Below are positions 3,546-52,953 of a stretch of DNA of 64,000 nt, piece by piece. The DNA is from Lachnospiraceae bacterium. Lineage in GTDB: Bacteria; Bacillota_A; Clostridia; Lachnospirales; Lachnospiraceae. The translations under genes and the position numbers were made by a program. The stretch spans positions 55,127 through 119,126 of the forward strand of contig JAQUUB010000009.1 of NCBI GenBank assembly GCA_028694115.1, written 5' to 3'. The first letter of the stretch is position 1; each line of letters begins with the position of its first letter. Under the pieces are notes generated by a model. The model was not told the origin of the DNA. It made no database searches and saw only the letters and a program-made list of their open reading frames with translations.

Positions 3546-3632
3546 TTTTATTCTCCATTCTTTTGTAAAAGTGCTTTGTATCTGTAGTATGTATTAATAA
3601 TAATCTATGTATACACATTAACAATGACAAAT

Positions 3633-3660
3633 ACTATAGCATTTACAGCTGTCTTGTCAG
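3633..3660 (-). promoter_or_regulatory. Putative promoter of the PTS IIC-like gene
   Basis: On the minus strand CTGACA (3660-3655) and TATAGT (3638-3633) are spaced by 16 bases. This lies just downstream of the tRNA-Glu terminator and about 90 bases before the permease start codon. Confidence 0.6.
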
Positions 3661-3670
3661 TTTATCCTTT

Positions 3671-3701
3671 AAAAAAATCTTAAGTCTTAACAGACCTAAG
3701 A
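3671..3701 (-). terminator. Intrinsic terminator of tRNA-Glu
   Basis: On the minus strand a 10-bp stem (TCTTAGGTCT / AGACTTAAGA, one G-U) with loop GTTA is followed directly by seven T. It is a strong Rho-independent terminator about 30 bases after the tRNA 3' end. Confidence 0.85.
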
Positions 3702-3731
3702 TATTCGGGTTAGACTATATGAAACAGTCAA

Positions 3732-3803
3732 CAGCTCGTAGGGGAATCGAACCCCTGTTTCCGCCGTGAGAGGGCGGCGTCTTAACCGCTTGACCAACGA
3801 GCC
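3732..3803 (-). tRNA. tRNA-Glu (anticodon CTC)
   Basis: A cloverleaf of 72 bases. It has a 7-bp acceptor stem (GGCTCGT with ACGAGCT, the first pair being G-U), a D arm with GGTCAAGCGGTTAAGAC, an anticodon stem CCGCC/GGCGG closing the loop CTCTCAC (anticodon CTC, reading GAG), and a T arm GGGG TTCGATT CCCC. The discriminator base is G and CCA is not encoded. Glu identity follows from the anticodon. Confidence 0.93.
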
Positions 3804-3806
3804 AAA

Positions 3807-3828
3807 AGTGTCACTCACAAGTGACACT
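3807..3828 (-). other. Hairpin in the pre-tRNA-Glu leader
   Basis: A perfect 9-bp inverted repeat (AGTGTCACT / AGTGACACT) with a 4-base loop. It ends three bases before the mature 5' end of tRNA-Glu and starts at the transcription start predicted from the promoter at 3834-3862. It is followed by TTTT, so it could alternatively be a weak terminator for polC. Confidence 0.5.
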
Positions 3829-3833
3829 ATTGT

Positions 3834-3862
3834 ATTTTAATATATAACTTATAAAATTGCAA
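3834..3862 (-). promoter_or_regulatory. Putative promoter of tRNA-Glu
   Basis: On the minus strand TTGCAA (3862-3857) and TAAAAT (3839-3834) are 17 bases apart in a very AT-rich context. Initiation about seven bases downstream would place the leader hairpin at the extreme 5' end of the precursor. Confidence 0.55.
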
Positions 3863-3904
3863 GATATTTTTTTATTAAGCAACAAATATTTTATTAAACA
3901 CCTA

Positions 3905-14683: not shown

Positions 14684-15826
14684 CTACCACCTACTCTCGA
14701 TAAAATCGTATGTTTCCTTTTCTGTTGCAAGGATCTGTTCTATATTTGGATTAGCTGATACCTTATGGTTCTTCATTGCACCTTCTATAATTTCTGGTAT
14801 TTGTAAGAACTTTATCTGATGCTTTAGCAATAATTTAACTGCCATTTCATTGGCTGCATTAAAGACAGTAGGCATTGTTCCACCAGTTCTAGCAGATTCA
14901 TAAGCTAGTTTTAATCCGGTAAACGTTTCTATATCTGGTTTCTCAAAAGTTAAATTTGCCAAATCATAAAAATCAAGGCGCCTGCCCCTTAGAAATCTTC
15001 TGTCTGGGTAAAACAAAGCATACTGAATAGGAAGTTTCATATCTGGTACACCTAATTGAGCTATCACAGCCCCGTCCACATACTCAACCATAGAATGAAT
15101 AATACTCTGAGGATGGACTACAACCTGAATATCCTCTAGTGACACATCAAAGAGCCACCTTGCTTCCATTACCTCAAGTCCCTTGTTAACAAGACTTGCA
15201 GAATCAATGGTCACCTTTTGGCCCATTGACCAGTTTGGATGTTTTAAGGCATCTTCTACACTCATTGTATCCAATTCTTTTCTCGTTCTTCCTCGAAATG
15301 GTCCACCTGAGGCAGTTAACAGTATTTTATTAATCTGTTGTCTATTTTCTCCATTCATTGATTGAAAAATAGCACTATGTTCACTATCTACCGGTAAAAT
15401 AGATACTCCTTTTTCGGTTGCAAGCTTCATAATAATGTGTCCGGCCGTAACTAGTGTTTCTTTATTTGCAAGAGCAATATCTTTTCCAGCCTCAATCGCT
15501 GCAATCGTAGGTTTAATTCCTATCATTCCCACAATGGCAGTTACTAATACTTGTGAATCCTTATGCACACTTACTTCCGTTAAGCCTTCCATACCACTAA
15601 CTACTTTCACTGAAAGATCTTTTACTCTTTCTTGCAAATCATGTGCAGCTTTCTCATCCCACATGGCCACAAGCTTTGGATGAAACTCTCTAATTTGCTC
15701 CTCCATCAATGTGACATTTGTTCCTGCTGCTAATGCAACAACCTGTAAATCACTATTCTCTCGAACAATATCAAGTGTCTGGGTTCCAATGGATCCTGTA
15801 GAACCTAGAATTGCAATTTTCTTCAT
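14684..15826 (-). CDS. dxr: 1-deoxy-D-xylulose 5-phosphate reductoisomerase
   Basis: An NADPH-dependent enzyme of 380 residues that makes MEP from DXP, the second step of the MEP pathway. The N-terminal Rossmann motif IAILGSTGSIGTQTL is clear. The active-site stretch PVDSEHSAIFQ and the catalytic loop (LTASGGPFRG, LKHPNWSMGQKVTIDSASLVNKGLE) are intact. The ATG at 15826 has AGGAG just upstream; an in-frame ATG at 15850 would fall at the edge of the 123-bp repeat and is less likely. The repeat separates dxr from cdsA. Confidence 0.95.
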   Translation of the reverse strand: MKKIAILGSTGSIGTQTLDIVRENSDLQVVALAAGTNVTLMEEQIREFHPKLVAMWDEKAAHDLQERVKDLSVKVVSGMEGLTEVSVHKDSQVLVTAIVGMIGIKPTIAAIEAGKDIALANKETLVTAGHIIMKLATEKGVSILPVDSEHSAIFQSMNGENRQQINKILLTASGGPFRGRTRKELDTMSVEDALKHPNWSMGQKVTIDSASLVNKGLEVMEARWLFDVSLEDIQVVVHPQSIIHSMVEYVDGAVIAQLGVPDMKLPIQYALFYPDRRFLRGRRLDFYDLANLTFEKPDIETFTGLKLAYESARTGGTMPTVFNAANEMAVKLLLKHQIKFLQIPEIIEGAMKNHKVSANPNIEQILATEKETYDFIESRW

Positions 15827-15848
15827 AAGTCTCCTATCTAATTCAATC

Positions 15849-15971
15849 ATGCCGCTACAGCAGGCACAAATAATTAATGAGAAGAAGGCGCTTGCGACTT
15901 CTTCAGGTGTGAGATTTAGTAATTCTTAGGAGCTGTATTTTTGCTCCTTAGAATTAGTTCTCACACTTCAC
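15849..15971 (-). repeat. 123-bp triple-hairpin intergenic repeat, copy 1
   Basis: This aligns without gaps over its full 123 bases to 51458-51580, same orientation. Hairpin A is about 15851-15865 (GCCGC/GCGGC type, with a bulged A here). Hairpin B is 15881-15904 (GAAGAAG...CTTCTTC). Hairpin C is about 15908-15966 (GTGTGAGA...TCTCACAC enclosing AATTCT..AGGAG with CTCCTTAGAATT). It fills the whole cdsA-dxr gap and its end overlaps the cdsA TGA stop. There is no coding potential. The strand is given as that of the surrounding transcription. Confidence 0.9.
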
Positions 15972-16789
15972 ATAAAAAGAACTGCCAAAATATATATCAT
16001 AGGTGCAGTTACTATTACACTATCGAATCGGTCAAGTATCCCTCCATGACCCGGTATTAAGTTGCCAAAGTCTTTAATACTATGATTTCTTTTTAATGCC
16101 GATGCCGTCAAATCGCCAATCTGTGAAACAACTGCACCAATACCTCCTATACATACAAAGATACCAATAATAACAAAATCCAAAGATCTTATTTGCGTTA
16201 ATGCGTACCCATATAAACCACCTACAAGTGCAGATCCAACTACCCCACCAATTGCTCCTTCTATTGATTTTTTTGGTGAGAGTTTTGGTGCAAGCTTGTG
16301 TTTACCAATAAGCATCCCTACACAATAAGCACAAGTGTCACAAATCCACGAGCTAATAAAGATAAGCCAAACAAGATAATTCCCATCTGTATACATTCTT
16401 GTTAAATAAATAAATGATAACATGACTGGAATATAGAGCACTCCAAAAACAGTTGACATCATATAACTGGAATGGAATCTAGGATAGTTAAACACATATA
16501 CAAACATTGTAGCAATTAATATACCAATCAATAACAGAAATAATCTCTGCGCATCAAAATCAAGTAAAAGTAGTCCATAATAAATCATTGTACCTATATA
16601 TCCTATAAATTCCAAACAATTAATTCTATTTTCTTTTTCTTCATCTGGTTTGACTGCACGATAAAATTCGAATTGACCTACTAATGAAATACCTAGAAGT
16701 AATCCCCACAATATCAAATCTCCCTGTAATAAGGAAAAAGCCAAAACAATTACCAGCACAATACTACTCATTAATCTGGTCTTAAACAT
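15968..16789 (-). CDS. cdsA: Phosphatidate cytidylyltransferase
   Basis: A polytopic membrane enzyme of 273 residues that makes CDP-diacylglycerol from phosphatidic acid and CTP. The C-terminal family signature is clear: SALKRNHSIKDFGNLIPGHGG and ILDRFDS, with CVGMLIGKHKLAPKLSPKKSIEG before it. About seven membrane helices are visible. The stop codon lies inside the end of the 123-bp repeat. Gene order uppS-cdsA-dxr is the conserved one. Confidence 0.95.
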   Translation of the reverse strand: MFKTRLMSSIVLVIVLAFSLLQGDLILWGLLLGISLVGQFEFYRAVKPDEEKENRINCLEFIGYIGTMIYYGLLLLDFDAQRLFLLLIGILIATMFVYVFNYPRFHSSYMMSTVFGVLYIPVMLSFIYLTRMYTDGNYLVWLIFISSWICDTCAYCVGMLIGKHKLAPKLSPKKSIEGAIGGVVGSALVGGLYGYALTQIRSLDFVIIGIFVCIGGIGAVVSQIGDLTASALKRNHSIKDFGNLIPGHGGILDRFDSVIVTAPMIYILAVLFM

Positions 16790-23408: not shown

Positions 23409-24293
23409 ATGAACTCTTTATATGAGGCAACCGATACCTTAGATACCCCCTATGAAGGATTTCTCATGGATAGCGAGACCATGGGGTTTCCTATTCGACC
23501 ACATTGGCATTATTTTATGGAAATCATCTATATGCTAGAAGGTTCCGCACTTATTAATTGTGATAATAAAACCTATACCGTTGTTCCTAATGAAATGATT
23601 CTTTTTCATCCGCAATCAGTTCATTCCATTTTTAAAGCGGAAGAAAAACCATTAAAATATTATGTCCTGAAATTTGATATTAATCGCTTAAATATCACAA
23701 GTAACTATGCTCCTAAGTTCCGTACTATTTTTCATAACGCATATGGTCTTGAATCTGCTCCGATTCATTTCACTCACTCAACTTTAATTCCTACATCTGT
23801 TTCACATAATATTTCCTGCTATGTTGAAGAGTTAAAAAACAAACAATATGGCTATGATATGCTGGTCAATTCAGAGCTTTGTGCTTTACTTACTACCATG
23901 ATACGAATATGGAAGAAAATGGGTTTTGATGTGGAAAAATCTCTTCCGCTTAATGCCGATGTCATTACGATATCTATGATTACAGAATATATAGATAAGC
24001 ATTCTGATAGTCCAATTAAAGTTGGGGAGATTGCAAAGCTTTGTAATATGAGTTACTCGCATTTTGCCAAAAGTTTTCGTGAGATATATGGACAGTCCTG
24101 TAAAGACTTTATTGAATATATCCGAATCTGTAAGGTGGAAGACTTTTTATTATTTACAGAATGTGATCTGAATTACATAAGTCAGGAAACCGGATTTTCT
24201 GACTGTAGTCATTTAATCAAAACTTTTAAACGACTAAGGGGAATCACACCAAAGCAGTTTAAATTACAACGAAAAAACGAAAATCGTTTATAA
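23409..24293 (+). CDS. AraC family transcriptional regulator
   Basis: This is the only clearly real gene on the plus strand. It encodes 294 residues: an N-terminal cupin sensor region (HWHYFMEIIYMLEGSALINC, FHPQSVHSIFKAEE) and a C-terminal double helix-turn-helix (IKVGEIAKLCNMSYSHFAKSFREIYG ... LNYISQETGFSDCSHLIKTFKRLRGITPKQFK). The ATG at 23409 follows AAAGGAG by five bases; an in-frame TTG at 23394 overlaps that site and is less likely. It is divergent from MATE-reductase across about 175 AT-rich bases. Its stop overlaps the converging gene by six bases. Confidence 0.92.
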   Translation: MNSLYEATDTLDTPYEGFLMDSETMGFPIRPHWHYFMEIIYMLEGSALINCDNKTYTVVPNEMILFHPQSVHSIFKAEEKPLKYYVLKFDINRLNITSNYAPKFRTIFHNAYGLESAPIHFTHSTLIPTSVSHNISCYVEELKNKQYGYDMLVNSELCALLTTMIRIWKKMGFDVEKSLPLNADVITISMITEYIDKHSDSPIKVGEIAKLCNMSYSHFAKSFREIYGQSCKDFIEYIRICKVEDFLLFTECDLNYISQETGFSDCSHLIKTFKRLRGITPKQFKLQRKNENRL

Positions 24294-25559
24294 AGATTTC
24301 CAAAAAACCGGTTCAAATATAGATTTTATTGATTTTACAACTAGATTATCATCTCCATTTTGAATAACAACATCATACGTTCCATCGATACTACCATACG
24401 TAATGATTTGACGTATTTTCAAGCAATCTGCTAAGTATCGGTTCATCTTACTTTTCATTGCTTTATTACTATATATCTTTAGATATGAGCTACCTGCATA
24501 TTCTCGTTCTTCCCCATCTACAATTCGGATGTTCAATGATAAGTTTTCTAAGAGATTCTTCAATCGTTCTATTTTTTCTTTGCTATCTATTATATAAATA
24601 TATACGGCTTCTAAATTCTCAGGAATCTCGCCACAAATATAATTTCTAAGTGGATTCTTTCTTAATTTCCTATAAACCTCTCTCATATTTTCATTGCAGA
24701 ATTCTTCAAAATAAATCATTAACGTATCCTGAATAATAAAATTAAAAAAGCCTTGCATTTGTTCTTCTTTTAAAACTTCTCTAATTTTCTTAACGATAGG
24801 AATGGGAATCGTCTCTTTTTTAATATATTTATTATTTTCAATATCATAAAGCGCCGCACCATTCATTGTGATAACTGGTAAATTCATATGAATGTCTCTT
24901 AATGGCACTATTAAGGATGCTGGAGTTTGTTCTGTTGATACTGTAAAATGAATTCCTTGTTCTAACATCCGATTCATTTCCACAATGCTGTAAGCATTCA
25001 ATTCCCCATTCCTATTAAGCAATGTATCATCAAGACCAGAAACAAAAAGAATATCTTTATTTTTCTTTCTAGGAAGATGAACCCAGTTTACAACAAGTGA
25101 GACAAACACACCAACCAGAGTATCAATTACTCGATTTGCCACAAATAGATATGGCACCTCATCAGTTCTATGATTCGAAACAATACTCAAAAAAACAACA
25201 CATGAGAAATAAGCGATTGCAGATTTATTAAAATCGACTGCAGTCTTTATAACAGGAATAACAAAAATAGAAATCAGGATTAAAATTGTAAATTCAGAAA
25301 AATCTAAATAGTGACAAAGTAAAAGCACTACTAATCCATATATGGCACCTATCAAGGTTCCTATGACCCGATTCTTAGCGACTTTTCCACTATGTCCTAC
25401 ATATGGCTGCATACAAAGAATTGCAGCAATTGCTGAATAGAATGGAATTCCTTGCTTGCCTCTTAACAAATAAATAATAAAGCAAATTAGAACTGCTACA
25501 GCTGTTTTTACCATACGCTGTCCTATATGCATTTGCATTTTTAAGTTATTCTTTATCAT
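24288..25559 (-). CDS. FUSC/ArAE-like membrane domain fused to a degenerate HAD (Cof-type) domain
   Basis: A protein of 423 residues. Residues about 1-165 form five or six membrane helices like small aromatic-acid exporter (FUSC) proteins: AILCMQPYVGHSGKVAKNRVIGTLIGA, then VANRVIDTLVGVFVSLVVNW. Residues about 168-423 resemble a Cof-type HAD phosphatase, but key positions are altered. Motif I reads GLDDT at 175-179, with Gly where the nucleophile Asp belongs. Motif IV reads GSIDGT at 389-394 instead of GDxxND. The phosphatase is therefore probably inactive and may serve as a sensor or binding module. Function unknown. Confidence 0.7.
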   Translation of the reverse strand: MIKNNLKMQMHIGQRMVKTAVAVLICFIIYLLRGKQGIPFYSAIAAILCMQPYVGHSGKVAKNRVIGTLIGAIYGLVVLLLCHYLDFSEFTILILISIFVIPVIKTAVDFNKSAIAYFSCVVFLSIVSNHRTDEVPYLFVANRVIDTLVGVFVSLVVNWVHLPRKKNKDILFVSGLDDTLLNRNGELNAYSIVEMNRMLEQGIHFTVSTEQTPASLIVPLRDIHMNLPVITMNGAALYDIENNKYIKKETIPIPIVKKIREVLKEEQMQGFFNFIIQDTLMIYFEEFCNENMREVYRKLRKNPLRNYICGEIPENLEAVYIYIIDSKEKIERLKNLLENLSLNIRIVDGEEREYAGSSYLKIYSNKAMKSKMNRYLADCLKIRQIITYGSIDGTYDVVIQNGDDNLVVKSIKSIFEPVFWKSL

Positions 25560-46626: not shown

Positions 46627-47877
46627 TTATTTAATAATTTCAGTTACCCTTACTCCAAAACTTTCTTCAATAACAACTACTTCACCCTTTGCAACATATT
46701 TTCCATTCACTAAAACATCGATTGGTTCACCGGCTATTTTATCAAGCTCTACAATGGTACCTGGTGCAAATTCTAATATTTCACTTATTGACTTATGTGT
46801 ACGTCCAAGTTCCACTGTCACTTCCAATGGTACATCTTTAATTAAATTTATGTTTTCTTGACTTTGCAACATGTTAATATCACTAGAAAAACTCTGAAAC
46901 TGAGCTGGTTGAATATTAACGTTCTGCATTGGCATCATTTGCTGTTGCATCATTGGCTGCTGCATCATCGGTTGCTGCATCATGGGTTGCTGCATCATCG
47001 GCTGTTGCATCATCGGCTGTTGCATCATGGGTTGCTGCATCATCGGCTGTTGCATCATGGGTTGTGTCTGATAAGCTGGCTCTGGTTGCATAATACTTGG
47101 TGCTGGTTCCTTTTTAGCCTCACTTGACTCTAGTGCACCCTGGTTATGAATAAAGTGATCGTACAATGATCTGGCAAAGTCAATTGGATAAAGCTGCATG
47201 ATTGTACTATCTACTAATTCATCAATCTGCATACGAAAAGAAATTTTCACAAATGTTCCTGATAAAAATGGTGCAATATCATCTGCCTTCATAAAACTAG
47301 ACATATCAATTAAACTTGCTTCTGGTGGGCTGATATCTATCATTCTACCAAGCATGGAAGAAAGAGAAGTGGCTGAAGATCCCATCATCTGGTTCATCGC
47401 TTCTGATATAGCACTTAAATGAAGTTCTCCCAATTCACCCTCGATGTTTGTACCATCACCATCCATCATAAGATCCGTAATGATTTTTACATCGGATTCT
47501 TTCAAAACTAAAATATTGGTTCCATCTAATCCTAATTTGTATTTGATTTGTATAAATACACACGGCTTTTCATACTCACTTGTTACAGTATCCCATGTAG
47601 CCAATGTAACAACAGGTGTTGTAATATTTACTTTTCTATTTACCAAGGAATAAAGAGTTGTAGCCGAAGTACCCATACTGATATTAGCTACTTCCCCAAT
47701 CGCATCTTTTTCCACATCTGTTAAGTATGCATCTTCACTACTGATTGGCTGTGCTTGATTCGAATCATCGGCTAATTTTGATTCTGTATTACTCACCGCC
47801 GGTTCTTCTATCGTTTCTCCATTTGCCATACCATTCAGTAATGCATTTATCTCATCTTGAGATAACATTCCATCCAT
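46627..47877 (-). CDS. fliY: Flagellar switch protein FliY with CheC-type phosphatase and FliN domains
   Basis: A protein of 416 residues. The N-terminal CheY-binding peptide (LSQDEINALLNGM) leads to a CheC-like domain with two phosphatase motifs (IGEVANISMGTSATTL near 64-79, ISEAMNQMMGSSATSL near 160-176). A low-complexity linker with eight tandem PMMQQ units (about 272-312) follows, then the C-terminal FliN/SpoA domain (LEVTVELGRTHKSISEILEFAPGTIVELD). It removes phosphate from CheY-P at the motor and builds the C ring. Both ExxxN motifs look intact. Confidence 0.95.
   Translation of the reverse strand: MDGMLSQDEINALLNGMANGETIEEPAVSNTESKLADDSNQAQPISSEDAYLTDVEKDAIGEVANISMGTSATTLYSLVNRKVNITTPVVTLATWDTVTSEYEKPCVFIQIKYKLGLDGTNILVLKESDVKIITDLMMDGDGTNIEGELGELHLSAISEAMNQMMGSSATSLSSMLGRMIDISPPEASLIDMSSFMKADDIAPFLSGTFVKISFRMQIDELVDSTIMQLYPIDFARSLYDHFIHNQGALESSEAKKEPAPSIMQPEPAYQTQPMMQQPMMQQPMMQQPMMQQPMMQQPMMQQPMMQQPMMQQQMMPMQNVNIQPAQFQSFSSDINMLQSQENINLIKDVPLEVTVELGRTHKSISEILEFAPGTIVELDKIAGEPIDVLVNGKYVAKGEVVVIEESFGVRVTEIIK
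46941..47059. repeat. Tandem 15-bp repeat within fliY
   Basis: Eight head-to-tail units of 15 bases (plus-strand unit GGYTGYTGCATCATB; the first, at the left edge, is 14 bases and more divergent) encode PMMQQ repeated eight times. Units differ only at synonymous positions, so the peptide is held constant while the DNA drifts. The array lies in the linker between the phosphatase and FliN domains. Confidence 0.95.
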
Positions 47878-51134: not shown

Positions 51135-51320
51135 TTAATCCGCATAAAGTTCTTTTCTATACGATTTTACAAGATTTTTCAACTCTTGTCTACTTTCTTT
51201 TACAATTATTTTTCTACCCGTTGTAAAAGATATGACTGTATCTGGTGTTTCCTCTATTATTTCAATAACCTGAGGATTTATAAGTATTTTCACATCATTC
51301 AATTTAGTTACTTCTATCAT
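51135..51320 (-). CDS. flbD: FlbD/SwrD family flagellar protein
   Basis: A protein of 61 residues: MIEVTKLNDVKILINPQVIEIIEETPDTVISFTTGRKIIVKES is the full family pattern. In Bacillus the equivalent gene (swrD) raises motor torque by supporting stator function; here motA follows 34 bases later, which fits that role. It is the first gene after the internal terminator at 51381-51408. Confidence 0.93.
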   Translation of the reverse strand: MIEVTKLNDVKILINPQVIEIIEETPDTVISFTTGRKIIVKESRQELKNLVKSYRKELYAD

Positions 51321-51380: not shown

Positions 51381-51408
51381 AAAAAAGGGAACCAAAATGT
51401 TCCCTTTT
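51381..51408 (-). terminator. Intrinsic terminator between flgE and flbD
   Basis: On the minus strand AAAAGGGAAC pairs with GTTCCCTTTT around a six-base loop and the T run reaches six. This is a full terminator signature in the middle of the flagellar cluster, about 50 bases after the 123-bp repeat. Confidence 0.85.
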
Positions 51409-51457
51409 ACATATCCCTTAAGGTTGTATAACCCATTATCTTTTCACACTTCTAAAC

Positions 51458-51580
51458 ATGCCGCTTCATGCGGCACAAATAATCAATGAGAAGAATCCGT
51501 TTGCGGATTCTTCCTGTGTGAGATTTAGTAATTCTTAGGAGTAGTATTTTCACTCCTTAGAATTACTTCTCACACTTCAC
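51458..51580 (-). repeat. 123-bp triple-hairpin intergenic repeat, copy 2
   Basis: The same length and orientation as 15849-15971. Hairpin A is 51460-51474 (GCCGC/GCGGC, perfect). Hairpin B is 51490-51513 (a perfect 10-bp stem GAAGAATCCG/CGGATTCTTC). Hairpin C is about 51517-51575 (GTGTGAGA/TCTCACAC outer stem, AGTAATTCT/AGAATTACT and AGGAG/CTCCT inner stem). It lies two bases beyond the flgE stop. No coding potential was seen. Confidence 0.92.
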
Positions 51581-51582
51581 AC

Positions 51583-52953
51583 TTATCTCTTCAGATTTAC
51601 AAGTTCTTCAATCATCGTATCCGATACCGTTATAATTCTACTATTTGCCTGGAATCCACGCTGAGTTGTAATCATCTCCGTAAATTCAGAAGATAAATCA
51701 ACATTACTCATTTCTAATACACCCGTAGAAAACCCTCCGCCATCTTGCGTAATGTCCTTACCAACACCATCGAATTCACCTGAGTTCATCGTTGCAGAAT
51801 AAAGGTTGTCTCCCTCTTTCTTAAGACCCGATGGATTCGCAAAGTTAGCAACAGCAATCTGACCTAACGTCTTTGTCACTCCATTCGTATAGGTAGCAAC
51901 AATCTTACCGTCTGTCTGGATTGCAAGACTATCCATCTCCCCAGTTGTTCGTCCTGCACCAACTGCCTTATTTGCAACCGTACCCGCCTGTCCCGCAATC
52001 GTACTTGTCCCTTTATTATCTACATTCTTTGTCGTGCTAAGATCTACATCTATGTTTGTAGAAAAAGCAGCATTAATACCAGAAAGGCTTGTAGCATTAA
52101 AAATAAATCCAGTTGCGGTTGTTACACCACCTACTGATGTTAATCCGCCTTTTACAGTATCATATTCCACGGTGGTAGAAGCCGCATTACTATTGATTAA
52201 TTTATCCAATGCCGTCTGCTTGTCAGCCGCACTCATACTGGCAAAAATAGACTTTGTATTAGAGTCCAAAATATCAGAGCATTTTAATGTATACTGACCC
52301 TCTGTAGCCGTTTCTGTTACAGAAAATTTAACGGTATAGCTATATCCCTTGGAATCATAAATTGACATTGTTGCAACCTGTCCGGTTGCTAACTGTGAAT
52401 CATTCTTATCGATAATTCCCGTTAAATATCCTTTTGTAGTAGCTTCTGCATCTGATGACATTGTTTTTGTTGACATAATCTGAAGTGGCCCAACATTATT
52501 TTTATTAATACTGCCATCAGCTTCTGCCGTCCATCCCTGTACCGTATATCCATTGGTTTTCATGCAGAGGGTACCGTTTACGTCAACATTAAAAGCACCT
52601 GCTCTTGTAAAATAATTACTCAAACCATCACTCACAATAAAGAAACTGTCTCCATTGATTTGAACATCAAATGGATTTCCTGTATTTTGTGAAGCACCTG
52701 GATCTTCAATAGCTGTAGAAATAGCACCTGCTTTAACACCCAGACCAATCTGTTTGGGGTTAATACCAGCTCTGCCTGTTGCTGCATTTGGACCTGATGC
52801 ATTTTGCGATGTTTGATACATTAATTCACTAAATGTAATGGAGCTTGATTTATAAGCAACTGTATTTACGTTTGCGATGTTATTACCTATAACATCCATT
52901 TTAATCTGATGTGTTTTTAATCCAGACACACCAGCATACAACGATCTCATCAT
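51583..52953 (-). CDS. flgE: Flagellar hook protein FlgE
   Basis: A protein of 456 residues. The N-terminal rod/hook motif is MMRSLYAGVSGLKTHQIKMDVIGNNIANVNTVAYKSS. A variable middle part (D1/D2, about 150-370) is rich in Ser, Thr and Asp. The C-terminal motif is STGVLEMSNVDLSSEFTEMITTQRGFQANSRIITVSDTMIEELVNLKR. The hook is the last structure exported before the FliK-controlled switch; fliK and flgD lie just upstream. Confidence 0.96.
   Translation of the reverse strand: MMRSLYAGVSGLKTHQIKMDVIGNNIANVNTVAYKSSSITFSELMYQTSQNASGPNAATGRAGINPKQIGLGVKAGAISTAIEDPGASQNTGNPFDVQINGDSFFIVSDGLSNYFTRAGAFNVDVNGTLCMKTNGYTVQGWTAEADGSINKNNVGPLQIMSTKTMSSDAEATTKGYLTGIIDKNDSQLATGQVATMSIYDSKGYSYTVKFSVTETATEGQYTLKCSDILDSNTKSIFASMSAADKQTALDKLINSNAASTTVEYDTVKGGLTSVGGVTTATGFIFNATSLSGINAAFSTNIDVDLSTTKNVDNKGTSTIAGQAGTVANKAVGAGRTTGEMDSLAIQTDGKIVATYTNGVTKTLGQIAVANFANPSGLKKEGDNLYSATMNSGEFDGVGKDITQDGGGFSTGVLEMSNVDLSSEFTEMITTQRGFQANSRIITVSDTMIEELVNLKR

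Follow-up and report, generated by a model that had tools for sequence, protein, structure and literature searches.

The window analysed here, a stretch of DNA of 64,000 nucleotides (64 kb), carries two copies of a non-coding element of 128 nt, which probably belong to a hitherto undescribed family of small, hairpin-forming interspersed repeats, of the ERIC/RUP/BOX kind, in a Lachnospiraceae-like lineage; the element would be transcribed together with its neighbours and perhaps affects the mRNA in which it lies. It is placed in the class of interspersed repeats because it is short, non-coding, foldable and sharply bounded, and is found in unrelated places, at gene ends. A repeat search of the window found the two copies to be ungapped and 86% identical, 35.6 kb apart and differing at 18 positions (6 transitions and 12 transversions), that is, a divergence of 14%. 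When one copy was compared with the whole window by blastn, the other was recovered with an E value of 2.6e-39, while the matches outside the two elements were only 11-32 nt long, with E >= 0.26, and so the repeat cannot be attributed to chance. The flanks of the two copies do not align to each other, in agreement with the original prediction, which had called them unrelated. That prediction had also described a 123-bp element in two gapless copies, and its presence and the lack of gaps were borne out, while its extent had to be corrected to 128 nt, with 4 nt more at one end and 1 nt more at the other. As for the three blocks proposed to be near-invariant, the one at 15908-15930 is identical in both copies, that at 15944-15971 has one difference (15957), and that at 15865-15887 has two (15875 and 15887). 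The copies and the genes around them are the following:

15845-15972, minus strand: copy 1 of the 128-nt element, at the cdsA/dxr junction (repeat search, blastn; cmsearch 147.4 bits, with a model made from the two copies)
15968-16789, minus strand: cdsA (phosphatidate cytidylyltransferase), upstream of copy 1, with its stop inside copy 1 (PF01148; homologue alignment)
14684-15826, minus strand: dxr (DXP reductoisomerase), downstream of copy 1 (PF02670, PF13288, PF08436)
51454-51581, minus strand: copy 2 of the 128-nt element, at the junction of flgE and a flbD-like ORF (repeat search, blastn; cmsearch 158.5 bits, with the same two-copy model)
51583-52953, minus strand: flgE (flagellar hook protein), upstream of copy 2 (PF06429, PF00460, PF22692; tblastn to annotated FlgE)
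51135-51320, minus strand: small ORF of 61 aa, downstream of copy 2 (ORF list), which we take to be flbD-like from gene order and sequence

Housekeeping and flagellar genes, most of them on the minus strand, make up a long series in the window, and the sense direction of the element is likewise the minus strand. Both copies have the same orientation, each starts at a gene end and each is flanked by co-directional genes, the order being cdsA, copy 1 and dxr in one case and flgE, copy 2 and the flbD-like ORF in the other. The element had been described as intergenic, and this holds for copy 2, which lies wholly behind the flgE stop and starts one base after it; it does not hold entirely for copy 1, whose start in the sense direction includes the stop codon (TGA) of cdsA together with two bases of its final Met codon. 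Copy 1 takes up all except 18 nt of the 141-nt gap between cdsA and dxr, a remainder comparable to the 25, 18 and 15 nt that separate pyrH, frr, uppS and cdsA. The same two genes are separated, in three further records from clostridia, by 25 nt, by about 14 nt (both similar to the 18-nt remainder) and, in Monoglobus, by 125-143 nt depending on the start. The Monoglobus gap gave no match to R1, a covariance model derived from the two copies alone, and therefore a long cdsA-dxr gap can exist without the element. Copy 2 is separated from the flbD-like ORF by 133 nt, within which a near-symmetrical hairpin with A/T-rich ends was noticed by eye at about 51381-51409; it is absent from the terminator scan and is possibly a terminator.

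A first indication of how copy 1 may have reached its place came from the C-terminus of CdsA. The window protein was aligned with 11 homologues taken from the top of the list, ten of them distant, of 118 others listed, and all ten distant homologues extend 2-5 residues past the end of the window CdsA, which points to an insertion. The one close relative in the same alignment, P0013, has a C-terminal end identical to that of the window protein; it is a CdsA fragment of 163 residues from a JGI contig of 1571 bases, with 95% identity across 60% of the query. The nearest relatives with a full-length CdsA, among them those named bacterium C-53 and Lachnospiraceae bacterium, reach at most 69% identity. 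Judging from its CdsA end, P0013 presumably carries the element as well, and the simplest reading of these sequences is that the element would have entered cdsA at its 3' end before these two closely related strains diverged.

Both copies are predicted to fold strongly. The fold energies were -46.8 (plus strand) and -44.7 (minus strand) kcal/mol for copy 1, with z about -5.5, and -55.9 (plus) and -59.3 (minus) kcal/mol for copy 2, with z about -9.9, and none of 200 shuffles matched the fold energy in any of the four folds (two copies, two strands). Three hairpins were predicted at the same places in both copies, with no consistent strand preference:

15907-15966, minus strand: hairpin 1 of copy 1, a long stem with an A-A mismatch and a bulge common to copy 2 and a C-C mismatch of its own (whole-copy fold, z -5.5)
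51516-51575, minus strand: hairpin 1 of copy 2 (whole-copy fold, z about -9.9)
15881-15904, minus strand: hairpin 2 of copy 1 (fold)
51489-51514, minus strand: hairpin 2 of copy 2, which, when read in sense, conforms to a loose terminator-like rule (fold)
15868-15879, minus strand: linker between hairpins 2 and 3 of copy 1, 12 nt with one difference between the copies (model)
51477-51488, minus strand: linker between hairpins 2 and 3 of copy 2 (model)
15849-15867, minus strand: hairpin 3 of copy 1 (model columns; the single-strand folds give 15847-15869 and 15850-15866)
51458-51476, minus strand: hairpin 3 of copy 2 (fold)

These folds raise the question of whether the element is a recurrent regulatory RNA module, cis-acting in the 3' UTR or between cistrons, perhaps bound by a protein or a small RNA, and kept by selection at particular genes. 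The fact that all four folds surpass the 200 shuffles is in line with this idea, as are the same orientation in both places and the conservation of the linker between hairpins 2 and 3 (one change in 12), while the hairpin tips vary. Moreover, among the 41 pairs of the model, 34 are invariant, two have changed on both sides and still pair, and five are broken in one copy; double-sided changes thus affect 3 of the 41 pairs (one of them among the five broken, so that two of the three still pair), which is above random placement (P 0.006 over paired sites and 0.028 over all sites). However, the covariation score was equalled in 136 of 500 partner shuffles, the changed sites are adjacent and hence not independent, and covariation from two sequences with adjacent changes is weak evidence. 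Template switching within palindromes can also yield double changes at hairpin tips, which counts against a selected RNA, as do the five broken pairs, the lack of a strand that folds consistently better, the absence by eye of a built-in ribosome-binding site and the restriction of the terminator-like pattern to hairpin 2 of copy 2. In addition, we know of no regulon common to the downstream genes, which belong to isoprenoid synthesis and to flagella. An RNA module is considered unlikely. The near symmetry of hairpin 1, together with the fact that the two strands fold about equally well, would also suit a site acting at the DNA level, bound by a protein or used in recombination and with the potential to form a cruciform, for which RNA folding would be incidental. 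Such a site is very unlikely: the position at stop codons and the sense orientation of both copies better suit an element that is transcribed or tolerated at 3' ends, no integrase or recombinase family was found among the 58 ORFs of the window that were scanned, and the GT[AG]G foot, which in the cited passages defines REPs (PMC6006769), is absent beside the hairpins on inspection of both copies.

The lack of a coding function, proposed at the outset, was supported as likely. An ATG-started frame of 26 codons is present on the plus strand of both copies, in which 10 codons differ, three of them silently (by eye), so that seven of the ten differing codons are non-silent; no ribosome-binding site was seen by eye, and a search with its peptide gave no candidate among proteins of about 33-105 residues. 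Both copies also have an open sense-strand frame of 22 codons or more, with no start codon near its beginning, and a search among proteins of the same size (about 33-105 residues) with the peptide of the minus-strand frame of copy 2 gave one candidate, with none at E <= 10. A coding role is therefore unlikely, the differences being mostly amino-acid-changing. The view that the element is no recognised, catalogued RNA also stood: at the gathering cut-off, no Rfam 15 family covered either copy, the only hit in the whole window being a tRNA, and the best sub-threshold matches over the copies were Cyano-1 (22.8 bits, cut-off 41) and mir-5911 (20.9 bits, cut-off 84). That tRNA (3732-3803) lies in a 359-nt spacer (3546-3904) with a raw predicted fold energy of -90.2 kcal/mol. 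An intrinsic terminator was rejected, as the terminator scan found none in copy 1, and hairpin 2 of copy 2, which conforms to the loose rule (one found versus 0.3 expected), is followed by the tail CATTGATTAT, with no T run.

The hallmarks of mobile elements were then considered. Of the broad traits of small interspersed repeats, the element shows those of being short, non-coding, at or between genes and foldable; as for dispersal, two copies with unrelated flanks are found in the 64 kb. The two ends do not match, and no terminal inverted repeats were found, the inverted matches in a self-blast being hairpins 1 and 2 only. No target duplication was seen by eye at copy 1, and at copy 2 the following match was noticed post hoc:

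51444-51452, minus strand: 9-mer just past the 3' end of copy 2, repeating part of the element's own 5' end (equalled by 33 of 5000 random 30-mers)

Because it repeats the element's own 5' end, this 9-mer does not represent a duplicated target site, and it may be the remnant of another copy in tandem. The window has 64 ORFs of at least 120 aa, of which 58 were scanned with Pfam (the other six, on the plus strand, overlap minus-strand ORFs and were omitted), and none of the 58 belonged to a transposase, integrase, recombinase or reverse transcriptase family or was a RAYT gene; only one of the 58 had no Pfam match. As neither inverted repeats at the ends nor a parent transposon were seen in the window, and no target duplication was clear, an assignment of the element to the MITEs is not supported. 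The same ORFs provided two separate observations. The ORF at 46627-47877, with FliN and CheC domains, contains at 46908-47079 a 15-nt tandem repeat, reported in eight overlapping register copies, which by eye would encode a Met/Gln-rich stretch, and the ORF at 24288-25559 joins an aromatic acid exporter-like membrane domain (PF06081) to a HAD-type hydrolase domain (PF08282), a combination that seems unusual in one ORF.

Further copies were sought in several collections. Within the 64 kb window, R1 found no third copy, its two other hits being opposite-strand matches that overlap the known copies; of these matches, one extends past copy 1. Eight pattern scans of viral_contigs, with 16-25 fixed bases each, returned 0, 0, 1, 0, 0, 2, 12 and 54 stretches, corresponding to 68 distinct loci (L001 was found twice), and R1 gave no hit at E <= 1 in 72 loci, namely these 68 plus L002, L005, L006 and L007, with L003 and L004 left aside. 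Plasmids gave no match at E <= 10, and in phages the matches at E <= 10 were limited to fragments in four records, with a query coverage of 15-28%; on these grounds, a phage or plasmid origin was rejected. One strict pattern scan of genome_contigs, which required both inner arms of hairpin 1 in nearly exact form and which relatives with a diverged stem would escape, returned a single stretch, a hairpin in Xenorhabdus accompanied by no other part of the element; the near-exact hairpin 1 was found in no further contig of the species genomes scanned. Among the open-licence papers listed in literature searches, none described such a repeat for Lachnospiraceae. That just two copies are known, both in one 64 kb window, counts against a repeat family, and the lack of a third copy in the window or the collections searched is what would be expected if only two copies existed, a single structured spacer having been duplicated ectopically long ago by gene conversion or illegitimate recombination. 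Yet two sharply bounded copies with unshared flanks in perhaps 2% of the genome (assumed to be of about 3 Mb) would then be a coincidence, and this explanation is regarded as quite improbable. Two copies per 64 kb would scale to tens per genome, a figure biased upward, as the window was noticed for holding two.

These observations could be integrated by assuming a family of small interspersed hairpin repeats. The original prediction had hesitated between a non-autonomous mobile element and a recurrent RNA module, and the former is better supported, by the unrelated flanks, the 14% divergence and the apparent insertion at cdsA, the latter being weaker. From the sequence, we infer that the element may be mobile, present in more genomic copies, transcribed and able to affect mRNA. 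A non-coding unit of ~128 nt would be copied by an enzyme acting in trans or by some other copying process, its copies landing at or just behind gene ends, where the element would be transcribed with the upstream gene and three hairpins would form in the mRNA. The most likely effect would be local and ligand-free, in that the hairpins might protect the upstream mRNA against 3' exonucleases or be cut as double strands, and as a result, the ratio of upstream to downstream product would shift. A more specific form of this proposal, a mobile 3'-UTR cassette restricted to the lineage, which would target gene ends in fixed orientation, provide its own stop codons and move without terminal inverted repeats, is regarded as highly doubtful. 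If the repeat family is real, it could be used to type strains of the Lachnospiraceae-like lineage and to study how operon expression is altered there by non-coding repeats; the general view of repeats in bacteria would stay as it is unless the targeting of 3' ends is real.

Among known repeats, the REP/BIME units associated with a RAYT transposase resemble the 128-nt element in being palindromic and intergenic, but the present unit is longer and has neither the GT[AG]G foot, by inspection, nor a transposase family among the 58 window ORFs; REP classes without the foot are also described in the cited passages (PMC6006769). The enterobacterial ERIC (IRU, RU-1), of about 127 bp, is described in the passages cited as intergenic, with long stem-loops, and as being transcribed along with the adjacent genes, and mRNA decay in Yersinia is changed by its copies at 3' ends (PMC2229807, PMC10969869). 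It is therefore like the element in size, intergenic position and stem-loop folding, and by analogy a similar effect on mRNA decay might apply here; by description, it differs in that the element has no terminal inverted repeats, three separate hairpins instead of a long one, and an unrelated lineage. The Coxiella repeat QMITE2 is found, according to the cited passage, mainly in 3' untranslated regions (PMC10969869). RUP, BOX and SPRITE are small interspersed repeats of Streptococcus pneumoniae with folded transcripts, which the cited passages report to be over-represented between convergent genes; terminal inverted repeats and target duplications are features of RUP and BOX, and SPRITE, which is terminator-like, shows enrichment near the 3' ends of genes (PMC3049150). 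As small, foldable repeats of Bacillota, and in the case of SPRITE also for their position near gene 3' ends, they resemble the element; by these descriptions, they differ in their inverted repeats, target duplications, terminator form and convergent bias, which are not clear here. This preference for convergent genes (PMC3049150), set against the co-directional genes found here, would speak, by analogy and as far as the cited passages go, against viewing the element as a parasite. Finally, clostridial stem-loop families have been listed, namely Clop-1, of 93 bp and 44 copies, in Clostridium perfringens, and Clot-1, of 74 bp and 19 copies, in C. tetani (PMC2267715 Table 3); both are shorter than the 128-nt element and are set apart from it by this tabulated description, not by sequence, and both share with it the character of intergenic stem-loop repeats in clostridia.
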